From positions 1 to 36,410 of the forward strand of contig CAMOTI010000169.1 of assembly GCA_946625675.1 (NCBI GenBank): a stretch of 36,410 nucleotides of DNA, given 5' to 3'. Shown piece by piece: positions 4,412 through 18,492 of the stretch (position 1 is the stretch's first letter; every line of letters starts with the position of its first letter). The DNA is from an uncultured Prevotellaceae bacterium. GTDB lineage: Bacteria; Bacteroidota; Bacteroidia; Bacteroidales; Bacteroidaceae. The notes under the pieces are model-generated. The model was not told the DNA's origin, did not search any database, and saw only the letters and a list, made by a program, of their open reading frames with translations. The translations under genes and the position numbers were made by a program.

Positions 4412-7362
4412 AATTTCTGCTTGATTTCCACCTCTGAGAAAGCTTCCAGCAGGTCGCCTTCCTTGAGGTCGTTGAAGTTAACGATAGAGATACCGCAGTC
4501 GAAGTTCAGTCCCACTTCCTTCACGTCGTCCTTGAAACGTTTCAATGCATTGATGCTGCCTGTGTGGATGACGATTCCGTCGCGTATCACGCGGATTTTG
4601 TCGCTGCGATGGATTTTTCCTTCAGTGACGATTGCACCAGCAACGGTTCCAACCTTCGTGATTTTGTAGACTTGCTTGACTTCAGCCGTTCCGGAATATT
4701 CCTCCTTGATCTCAGGAGCCAGCATTCCTTCCATCGCGCTCTTGATTTCCTCAATCGTGTCGTAGATGATGGAGTAGAGTCGTATGTCCACGCCTTCCTG
4801 CTCGGCGAGTCGTCGTGCAGGCTGGGAAGGACGTACCTGGAATCCGATGATGATAGCGTCTGACGCCTTAGCGAGCGACACATCGTTCTCAGAAATTTGT
4901 CCCACAGCTTTGTAGATGACGTTGACCTGAATCTTCTCGGTGGAGAGCTTGATGAGCGAGTCGCTCAATGCCTCGATGGATCCGTCGACGTCGCCCTTGA
5001 CGATGAGGTTGAGGTCTTTCACTCCGCCGATTGCGATGTCGTGAGCCAGATCTTCAAGTCCCTTGCGCTTGGTTGTGCGTATTCCCTGCTCGCGTTTCAG
5101 CTGTTCGCGCTTGTTTGCCAGCTCACGTGCCGCTTGCTCCGTCTCCATCACATGGAACGTGTCTCCGGCAGTTGGTGCTCCGTTCAGTCCGAGAATCAGT
5201 GCAGGCTCTGCAGGCAGCACCTTGTCGATGCGCTTTCCGCGCTCGTTGAACATGGCCTTGATTTTTCCCCAGCTTGTTCCGGCAAGCACGATGTCGCCTT
5301 GTTTGAGCGTTCCGTTCTGCACCAGCACGGTTGCCACGTAGCCTCGTCCTTTGTCGAGCGACGACTCAATCACGCTTCCCACTGCCTTGCGGTTGGGATT
5401 GGCTTTGAGGTCGAGCATCTCTGCCTCAAGCAGCACTTTCTCCATCAGCAGGTCGACATTGATACCTTTCTTTGCAGAGATGTCCTGGCTCTGGTATTTT
5501 CCGCCCCAGTCCTCGACGAGGTAGTTCATGGCAGCCAGCTGCTCCTTGATTTTCTCAGGGTTGGCTCCCGGCTTGTCAATCTTGTTGATTGCAAACACCA
5601 TAGGCACGTTTGCAGCAACTGCGTGGCTGATTGCCTCCTTCGTCTGTGGCATGATGTCGTCGTCGGCAGCTATGATGATAATCGCGATGTCGGTCACCTG
5701 CGCACCGCGCGCACGCATGGCTGTGAATGCCTCGTGTCCCGGTGTGTCGAGGAATGTGATACGTTTGCCGTTAGGCATCTTCACGTTGTATGCACCGATA
5801 TGCTGTGTGATACCTCCAGCCTCTCCGGCAATCACGTTGGTCTTGCGGATATAGTCGAGCAGTGATGTCTTACCATGGTCGACATGTCCCATCACGGTGA
5901 TAATCGGCGCGCGTGGCTGAAGATCCTCCTCTGCGTCGGCTTCTTCCTCGATGGCGTTCGAAACATCCTCGCTGACATACGTAGTTGAGAATCCGAACTC
6001 TTCAGCTACGAGGTTGATGGTCTCGGCGTCCAGTCGCTGGTTGATGGAAACCATAATGCCGATTTGCATACATGTTGCAATGACCTGTGTGACAGGCACG
6101 TTCATCATGGTTGCGAGTTCGTTGGCAGTCACATATTCAGTCAGTTTCAGGATTTTGCTCTCTGCATTTTCCTCCTCTTCCTGCTCTGCCATCCTATTGT
6201 GTATCGCCTCACGCTTGTCCTTACGGTATTTCACGCCCTTCTTCATTTGCTTTGAGGTCAGACGGGCGAGCGTCTCCTTCACCTGCTTTGATATTTCCTC
6301 ATCGGTCAGTTCAGGTGCTTTCGCATTTTTGTTCTTCTTCTTTTTCTTTCCCGACTGCTGAGCCCCCTGCTGGTTTTGCTGCTGGTTCTGCTGCTTGTTC
6401 TTCTTGCGGGGGTCGGTGGTCTGCTGTGCTGCCTCTGCGTTGATGTCGACGCGCTCCTTTCCAATGCGTGTGCGCTTCTTCTTCTTTGCAATCTCTCCCT
6501 CATGGGCTTGACGCATGGCTTCTTTTGCTTCTTTGCGCTGACGCTCTTTCTCCTCTCGTTCTTTCCTTTTCTCGGCTTTTGACTTCTTGTCAGGACGGGT
6601 CTTGGAGTTGAGGTTGCTCAGGTCGATAAAGCCCACTTGCTTCACTCCTGTTGTGGGTGTCTCAGTGCGGAAAACTCCGTCTTCGTCCACCTTTCCCATC
6701 ACTTTCTGCTTCTGCTTCTTCTCCTTTTCCTTGTGAGATTGTGTGTCAGGCTGAGTTTTCTCCTCGTCTTTCACAGTTTCTTTGCTTTCAGAGAGGGCAG
6801 GTTCCGGTGATTCTGTTAGCGTCTTAGCCACAACTGCAGGCTCTTCGTTTTTCTCTTCCTTCTTTTCCTCCTTTTCAGCTGTCGCAGCAGTTGCGCTTTC
6901 CTCCTTCGGCTGCTCAGCCTCCACAACAGGCTGTGTCTGAGGCTTGGCGTCCGTCTGTGTCTTCTCCTCTGCAGGCGTTTCATTCTGGGGCTGTGGTGGA
7001 GTCACTTGGACTCTCTCTTCTTCTTTTTTCTCTTCAGACTTAGGCTGCTGAAGATCCTTGATGTTGCCCACTACCTTGAACTGCTGCTTGGTCTCAGAAG
7101 GTGCTCTGAATATTTCAGGCTTCTGTCGCTTCTCCTGCTTGAGGCGTTCGCGTTCTTGCCGTTCGCGCTCTTTCTGCTTCTGAATCTCCTCGTGTTTCGT
7201 CTTGTCGGCGCCGAAAGCATCCATGAGCAGTTTGTACTGCTCATCCGTGATCTTTGCGTTAGGGCTGGCGTCTTGCAGCGCCTTGCCCTTCTTCTGCAGG
7301 AATTCGGCCACGGTGTTAATTCCCACATTCAATTCTCTTAATGCTTTATTGAGTCTTGGCAT
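4408..7362 (-). CDS. infB: Translation initiation factor IF-2
   Basis: 984 aa; [49 protein letters not shown]; charged low-complexity N-terminus. Confidence 0.98.
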
Positions 7363-15629: not shown

Positions 15630-15690
15630 CTTCGGGTCGTCTGCGTAAGTAAATCCATAGTCCCTCATTTTTCTTTCAACATTCAGCATT

Positions 15691-15805
15691 AAACTCTAAA
15701 CTCAACAGAGTAACTTTACTCTAAACTCAACAGAGTAACTTCACTTTAAACTCTCAACTCAACAGAGTAACTTCACTCTAAACTCTCAACTCTAAACTCT
15801 CAACT
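15691..15805. repeat. Imperfect tandem repeat of ~25-32 nt containing ctcaacagagtaactt(t/c)a
   Basis: ctcaacagag core at 15701, 15726 and 15758, with degenerate ctctaaactctcaa copies to 15805. Confidence 0.85.
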
Positions 15806-15810
15806 AATCT

Positions 15811-17368: not shown

Positions 17369-18211
17369 ATGAAAAAAGTATTGATTTATTTATGCCTGAT
17401 GGCATTTCCTCTGGCATTGTCAGCCCAAAGCAAACGTGGCGACGTGAACTCGGACGGAAAAGTGGACATATCCGACATTGTGGCTGTGATTAACATCATA
17501 GCGACGGGAGGAGACGACATTGTGACTAAAACGGTCACATATGAGGTGGATGGAGTCGCATTCAACATGGTCAGTGTGGAAGGCGGCGTGTTTAAGATGG
17601 GGTCGGAGTCAGGCAACGATGATGAGAAACCCGTCCACGAAGTGAAGCTCAAAAGTTTCTCCATCGGTCAGACCGAGGTGACTCAGGAACTGTGGGAGAC
17701 CGTGATGGGCACGAACCCGTCGAAATGGAAAAGTCTGAAGCTGCCTGTGGAGAATGTGTCGTGGAACGACTGCCAGACCTTCATCACGAAGCTGAACACG
17801 CTGACCGGTCAGCAGTTCCGCCTGCCCACTGAGGCCGAGTGGGAGTATGCCGCCCGTGGCGGGAGCCAAAGCAAGGGCTATACCTACAGCGGCAGTAACA
17901 GCCTCGACGAAGTAGCGTGGTACTCATCAAACAGCGGTAGCAAGACTCATGAAGTGGCCACGAAGTCTCCGAACGAGCTGGGCATCTACGATATGACCGG
18001 CAACGTTTGGGAATGGTGCCAGGACTGGTATGGCGACAACTATTACGCTTGGTCTGTGATCATTAACCCTACCGGACCGTCCTCGGGCTCCTACCGCGTG
18101 TACCGTGGTGGCAGTTGGAGCCACTACGCGAGGTACTGTCGTGTGCCGATTCGCTGCAGCATCACCCCTGACTTCCGCAACTACGACCTCGGCTTGCGCC
18201 TTGCCCTTTGA
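17369..18211 (+). CDS. Secreted dockerin-like + FGE-sulfatase/SUMF1 (C-type-lectin fold) protein; candidate DGR variable protein
   Basis: Signal peptide; RGDVNSDGKVDISDIVAVINIIA dockerin-like EF-hand; FKMGSESGNDDEKPVHEVKLKSFSIGQTEVTQELWETVMG, LPTEAEWEYAARGG, YDMTGNVWEWCQDWYG; C-term YRVYRGGSWSHYARYCRVPIRCSITPDFRNYDLGLRLAL. Confidence 0.93.
   Translation: MKKVLIYLCLMAFPLALSAQSKRGDVNSDGKVDISDIVAVINIIATGGDDIVTKTVTYEVDGVAFNMVSVEGGVFKMGSESGNDDEKPVHEVKLKSFSIGQTEVTQELWETVMGTNPSKWKSLKLPVENVSWNDCQTFITKLNTLTGQQFRLPTEAEWEYAARGGSQSKGYTYSGSNSLDEVAWYSSNSGSKTHEVATKSPNELGIYDMTGNVWEWCQDWYGDNYYAWSVIINPTGPSSGSYRVYRGGSWSHYARYCRVPIRCSITPDFRNYDLGLRLAL
18092..18210 (+). other. Putative DGR variable region (VR) with adenine-free IMH-like 3' end
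   Basis: NNC-type codons tac,agc,cac,tac,tac,(att),tgc,agc,atc,ttc,aac,tac,gac at lectin-face positions; 18188-18210 ctcggcttgcgccttgccctttg contains no A. Confidence 0.72.
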
Positions 18212-18247
18212 GTTCCTGTCAAAAAAAGGAATAACAAACTAAAAGGA

Positions 18248-18316
18248 GCATTCCTGGTGCGGACAGGAAGAAAATTCCAATGAAAAGGAATTTTCACCGG
18301 TCCGCACCAGGAATGC
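18248..18316. repeat. Bipartite perfect-arm hairpin/cruciform downstream of VR
   Basis: Outer arms gcattcctggtgcggac (18248-18264) / gtccgcaccaggaatgc (18300-18316), 17/17; inner arms gaaaattcc (18270-18278) / ggaattttc (18287-18295), 9/9; loop aatgaaaa. Confidence 0.95.
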
Positions 18317-18331
18317 GACGCAAAAAAATAT

Positions 18332-18492
18332 GTGCAGTTTAGGAATTTTGTACACTCGTTGGGAGACGATGGCTTGCAGGAGGCAGAGCTGAATCGGTTC
18401 CTGCGGGTTCATCGCAATTGACACCCGACACCGGGAGCGTGGATCTGGTGGAGGCACTGCCACCCGGAGGGGTGTTGGGTTGTTTGTAGAAA
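18332..18492 (+). pseudogene. Decayed HRDC-like DGR accessory ORF remnant
   Basis: Frame from 18332 reads VQFRNFVHSLGDDGLQEAELNRFLRVHRN* (stop at 18418-18420), resembling the N-terminus of the short HRDC-like accessory proteins next to Bacteroidetes DGRs; sequence continues in other frames without an intact ORF. Confidence 0.5.

Follow-up and report, generated by a model that had tools for sequence, protein, structure and literature searches.

The 69-nt hairpin at positions 18248-18316 (+ strand) of the window, which is the whole 36,410-nucleotide stretch of DNA analyzed here, is very probably the target-recognition hairpin or cruciform of an HRDC-type cellular diversity-generating retroelement (DGR) in a Bacteroidales bacterium, left behind at a locus from which the DGR core has been deleted. 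DGRs are systems that repeatedly rewrite the terminal part of a gene for a surface protein. The original prediction had likened the structure to a DGR target-recognition hairpin from its position relative to the variable repeat (VR), and this reading is supported by adenine-type hypervariation in the VR, by an IMH end, by hairpins that follow VRs and not template repeats (TRs) in related DGRs, and by the stub of an accessory gene 15 nt 3' of the hairpin.

A bipartite perfect hairpin with 17/17 and 9/9 stems, internal strands AGGAA and ACCG, and an 8-nt loop had been described, and a base-by-base check confirmed every pair (26/26). The outer arms are complementary at 17/17 positions and the inner arms at 9/9, with a 5/4 internal loop between them, and the AT-rich inner stem has G-C pairs at 3/9 positions (Table 1). 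The hairpin starts 36 nt past the stop codon of a dockerin/FGE-sulfatase gene. Fold prediction, proposed at the outset as a check, gave z values of -10.5 as DNA and -9.9 as RNA, and 0/200 shuffles were equally stable. The hairpin is single copy in the window's own genome (G000), where the search covered an assembly of 2.75 Mb in 170 contigs that is about 70% complete and where the other matches were its own reverse complement and chance hits of 14 to 15 nt. Among 60 relatives it was found in one, the same-genus genome G010, at the orthologous locus, so that the dispersed copies that had been named as evidence against a DGR hairpin did not appear. The original prediction also included an alternative fold between TTCCTGTC (18213-18220) and GACAGGAA (18262-18269). 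The exact 8-nt complement does exist, but a competing role is not supported: the fold looks incidental, given that the complement shrinks to 6 nt in the G010 ortholog and to 5-6 nt in other members of the genus.

Table 1. Features of the window (positions 1-based) and anatomy of related hairpins
Feature	Position	Strand	Basis or anatomy
DGR target gene: dockerin-like repeat + FGE-sulfatase (C-type-lectin-like) domain	17369..18211	+	Pfam PF03781 E 5.5e-51, PF00404 E 7.4e-05
VR, outer limits approximate	18086..18216	+	Differences vs G010 ortholog + sister TR adenines
GTTCC past stop, VR-type (IMH) end; TRs have GCT	18212..18216	+	GTT (VR) vs GCT (TR), 7/8 pairs
Outer stem, left arm, 17 nt, GCATTCCTGGTGCGGAC	18248..18264	+	Base-by-base check
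Internal loop, left strand AGGAA	18265..18269	+	Base-by-base check
Inner stem, left arm, 9 nt, GAAAATTCC	18270..18278	+	Base-by-base check
A-rich 8-nt loop AATGAAAA	18279..18286	+	Base-by-base check; most related hairpins also A-rich
Inner stem, right arm, 9 nt, GGAATTTTC	18287..18295	+	Base-by-base check
Internal loop, right strand ACCG	18296..18299	+	Base-by-base check
Outer stem, right arm, 17 nt, GTCCGCACCAGGAATGC	18300..18316	+	Base-by-base check
Truncated first 29 codons, HRDC-type DGR accessory gene, GTG start, TGA at 18419	18332..18418	+	Match to a profile built from seven accessory N-termini, E 4.9e-05
Short dispersed repeat in place of remaining DGR core	18413..18480	+	Several copies in G000 and G010
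L154 hairpin			Outer 14 bp, internal loop 3/3, inner 8 bp, loop AAAATTCTAAAA
L187 hairpin			Outer 11 bp + further pairs, internal loop 5/4, inner 8 bp, loop AATAAAAA
L188 hairpin			Outer 14 bp, internal loop 4/1, inner 8 bp, loop AAAACTTAAAA
G010:C30 hairpin			Outer 6 bp, internal loop 5/4, inner 9 bp, loop AAAATTTAAAA
G005 hairpin			Outer 10 bp, internal loop 4/4, inner 9 bp, loop AAAATAAAAAA
L091 hairpin			Outer 11 bp, internal loop 4/4, inner 7 bp, loop AAAGCGATAGC

The C-type-lectin-like class to which the FGE-sulfatase domain belongs is a known DGR target type. Compared to the G010 ortholog, the last 126 bases of the target gene contain 24 differences, 22 at codon positions 1-2 and 2 at position 3, whereas the 58 differences in the gene body divide into 18 at positions 1-2 and 40 at position 3 (Fisher 3.7e-07). 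Adenines of a sister TR on G010 contig C30 account for 17/24 of the VR differences between the window and G010 (p 5.6e-07), and judged from sequence the pattern is the AAC-to-NNC of adenine mutagenesis. The concentration of VR differences at template adenines that is expected of a DGR was found here with the ortholog and the sister TR as references and not with the window's own TR; with the cognate TR missing, the limits of the VR and its distance to the hairpin can be given only approximately. At or just past the stop codon, GTT in the VR is paired with GCT in the TR in 7/8 pairs, L154 being the exception, and the window carries GTT, the VR form (IMH rather than IMH*).

The sister VR on contig C30 (locus L150) is followed by its AAC-rich TR about 1.5 kb further along, and 20 of the 22 differences between the two fall at TR adenines. 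Neither an RT nor an HRDC gene was found in the L150 neighborhood, and we read L150 as another DGR that lacks an RT, carried by the sister genome G010. An HNH-endonuclease ORF (4859-5659) sits between this VR and TR (L150 4513-6176).

Past the hairpin, the accessory stub begins with GTG at 18332 and translates to VQFRNFVHSLGDDGLQEAELNRFLRVHRN before its stop, resembling the starts of HRDC accessory proteins such as MQYKKFLLPLTDDGRQEAELNSFLRGHRV in L186. Among the loci searched, a profile of seven accessory N-termini matched only the window frame (E 4.9e-05) and its G010 ortholog (8.8e-05), and the accessory gene is present only as this 29-codon HRDC-type remnant. The dispersed repeat that follows begins CGCAAT(T/G)GACACCCGACACC. 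Exactly where the window carries it, G010 has a stretch of about 1.75 kb (L025 5290-7045), which has an 80% identical paralog at L025 10915-11930. Beyond the repeat or the stretch, the window and G010 reach the same flavodoxin gene, and at both loci the RT, the TR, and the rest of the accessory gene have been lost. Elsewhere in the window, tandem AACTCAACAGAGTAACTT-like repeats lie at 15689-15810, between the HIT and M20 peptidase genes.

No DGR RT was found in the assembled 70% of G000, and the assembly yielded neither a TR copy nor a stand-alone accessory protein; the lack of an RT and a cognate TR in this part of the genome counts against the DGR reading. HRDC matches elsewhere in the genus covered the HRDC part only (model positions 78-147) in frames of 727-766 aa and are presumably RecQ helicases. 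An RT on G010 contig C87 (L024) was rejected: it resembles the RT of a group II intron, and its 14-kb stretch lacks the VR end sequence. The RT of G007 (L031) was also rejected as a source, as it belongs to a prophage DGR whose target is not of the FGE type. Because no RT was found in the assembled 70% of G000, we class the locus as a remnant or target, not a complete DGR; it is a core-deleted DGR that consists of target gene, hairpin, and stub. The core loss probably precedes the split between the window and G010, given that the two genomes share the end point of the stub. DGR-type VR differences despite this shared truncation would point to an RT acting in trans. Between the window and G010, the flanks of the locus share about 98% identity, and the end of the target gene diverges. 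A block at about 17449-18325, comprising the target gene and the hairpin, shows about 10% divergence from G010, compared with 1-2% in its flanks, and reads as a replaced allelic block that ends just past the hairpin. Whole-allele import by recombination would explain the VR differences as well as an RT in trans, given that the whole block exceeds its surroundings in divergence.

A TR-pattern search led to L154 in G223, a genome from a different genus of the same family, where the DGR is complete, with VR gene, HRDC accessory, RT, and TR. The L154 RT has relatives in 43/399 family genomes and in 0 of the window's own genus, for which every genome used is partial. In the closest group (L154 and L186-L191), the order is VR gene, accessory, RT, TR. 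TR/VR pairs were found computationally by mismatch concentration at TR adenines, and the HRDC domain was assigned by Pfam for L154, L186, and L091 and by alignment for the other group members. The TR of L091 was not located, the pair search gave none in L194, L195, and L204, and the L185 pair was rejected as a low-complexity false pair. A search of viral contigs with the HRDC-DGR RT as query gave no match. Like the window, L154 and L186-L191 have a VR that is FGE-type or similar and shows A-specific changes, and in these loci and L091 a hairpin lies 3' of the VR with the HRDC gene directly next, two-storey in L154, L187, L188, and L091. Unlike the window, which lost these parts and most of the accessory gene, they retain the RT and, where verified, the TR.

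Strong hairpins occur 3' of the VRs of the L154/L186-L191 group, between the VR gene and the HRDC gene in the complete DGRs. Several related hairpins share one plan: a long outer stem, an internal loop, an inner stem of 7-9 bp, and a loop of 7-12 nt that is mostly A-rich. Their arm sequences differ, and the comparison for covarying arms that had been suggested for regions downstream of VRs gave both-sided changes at 8/9 inner-stem positions, with pairs counted from each sequence's own arms, a procedure biased toward structure, because aligning the inner hairpins with MAFFT failed to bring their arms into register. The fold z was lower in the VR flank than in the TR flank in 8/8 verified DGR pairs (p 0.004). 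Of the VR flanks, 8/12 matched a strict bipartite descriptor, compared with 0/8 TR flanks and 1/86 other gene ends (p 2.7e-08), where five of the 12 VR flanks were picked after folds were seen and two are orthologs; the seven RT-anchored VR flanks alone gave 3/7, about 0.001 versus 1/86 (hypergeometric, by hand). Across the window and the group, the inverted repeat lies 3' of the VR and not of the TR. The shapes in L186 and L189-L191 are different or weaker and fall outside the strict descriptor, which counts against the DGR reading, and 0 of the prophage-like DGRs L192-L203 (VR-TR-RT order) match it. The same small palindrome, ACCGGCGTAAGCCGGT, stands 3' of the VR in L191 and L202, whose DGRs are otherwise different. 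A bacterial MAG (L073 5554-6084) carries an FGE-type VR and TR about 380 nt apart with 26 A-changes and a large branched hairpin past the VR.

The palindrome 3' of the VR in BPP-1 is required for efficient homing (Guo et al. 2011, PMC3240598; see also PMC12875486 for this precedent). Its stem structure matters rather than its sequence, it forms in supercoiled DNA, and it does not set the integration site (PMC3240598). The hairpins of BPP-1 mtd and of phages share with that of the window an inverted repeat just 3' of the VR, beyond TR/VR homology and absent at the TR, with a variable stem sequence and a spacing of a few to about 34 bp. Phage DGR hairpins follow a rule of one 7-10 bp GC-rich stem with a 4-nt GRNA loop, and a BPP-1 loop lengthened by 2 nt nearly abolished homing (PMC3240598). 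The window has neither the single GC-rich stem nor the GRNA tetraloop of the BPP-1 class; its hairpin is instead two-storey (17 + 9 bp) with a 5/4 internal loop, an AT-rich inner stem, and an 8-nt A-rich loop, and it is accompanied by an HRDC accessory instead of Avd. This misfit of loop and inner stem counts against the DGR reading. The arms had been noted as much longer than in BPP-1, and long arms turned out to be common to a group of HRDC-type DGRs. The difference in hairpin anatomy may go with DGR type rather than with host, given that a prophage DGR of the same genus (L031) has a GACA-loop palindrome. In that prophage DGR (L031 5774-9118, G007), the palindrome lies past the VR and a small ORF sits between the non-FGE target and the RT. 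The HRDC-type DGRs of Treponema denticola also have an HRDC accessory beside the RT, IMH/IMH* differences, and target genes that persist in strains lacking RT and TR, whereas their accessory gene lies between TR and RT (PMC4891356). That paper describes no hairpin, and the words "hairpin" and "stem" are absent from its text. We found no description of a two-storey DGR hairpin in the literature searched, which included little subscription literature and few preprints.

We considered that the hairpin could act at the RNA level, as a terminator, attenuator, or mRNA-stabilizing 3' hairpin that lowers expression of the accessory protein and RT relative to the target protein. The site between two co-directional genes and the high stability of the hairpin as RNA fit such a role, and 3'-end hairpins are common (control gene ends have a mean z of -1.5, with 12/86 below -4.5). 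We nevertheless regard it as unlikely, given that AAAAAAA and not a T-run follows on the + strand, where a terminator scan made no call at the hairpin, in line with the original view that this is not a typical terminator. In addition, the two-storey shape recurs at just 1/86 other gene ends and is absent 3' of TRs, and the BPP-1 counterpart forms in DNA (PMC3240598). Matches to known RNA families were sub-threshold hits to microRNA precursors (scores 24-26 versus gathering 66-92), as expected of any long hairpin, and an integron attC reading was dropped on visual inspection alone. A REP/MITE-like mobile or repeat palindrome, or a chance palindrome without a DGR link, is highly improbable. Such elements typically contain long perfect palindromes, and a dispersed repeat lies nearby (18413-18480), yet the hairpin is single copy in the assembled 70% of G000 and kept at the orthologous G010 site, and comparable hairpins of other sequences occupy the same place in other DGRs.

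A different question is whether the hairpin once served a DGR at a locus that is no longer diversified. This is compatible with the identification of a DGR target hairpin, as it concerns activity and not identity, and we consider it a serious possibility, if somewhat less likely than not. The accessory gene is cut at codon 29 in both G000 and G010, the RT and TR are absent from the locus and were not found in the G000 assembly, and T. denticola strains are known with target genes but without the core (PMC4891356). Against decay, the window hairpin is perfect, the differences between the VR and its ortholog are of the DGR type though the truncation is common to both, the sister TR in G010 is intact, and G000 and G010 are each only about 70% complete, leaving room for an RT in trans.

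In a working element of this kind, TR RNA would be reverse transcribed with errors at adenines, the cDNA would replace the 3'-terminal VR of the FGE gene, and the palindrome just 3' of the VR would mark the VR copy, not the TR, as the recipient. The palindrome probably extrudes as a DNA hairpin or cruciform, which may keep the IMH region open or be bound by DGR proteins; by analogy with BPP-1, we infer the action at the DNA level, the role in homing efficiency, and the protein binding. Because the locus lost its core, present diversification of the VR would depend on an RT and TR from elsewhere or on recombination with alleles of an intact lineage. More speculatively, and with considerable doubt, we suggest that HRDC-type cellular DGRs use a target signal of their own, a two-storey hairpin whose 7-12-nt loop is A-rich and which is recognized by the HRDC accessory protein and not by the Avd/GRNA-tetraloop system, and that VR-hairpin modules survive the loss of their core, with an RT elsewhere diversifying them in trans.

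In summary, the way a DGR discriminates its target from its template is understood for BPP-1, which has a short GC stem and a tetraloop (PMC3240598), and a cellular HRDC-type DGR group with a different but structurally maintained hairpin provides a second case that can be tested directly. The group also suggests that hairpin shape and accessory-protein type are linked. The global DGR survey itself states that remote targets would escape detection (PMC8144416), and the hairpin gives a sequence-based route to DGR targets even when a contig lacks the RT and TR, targets to which RT-anchored surveys are blind.
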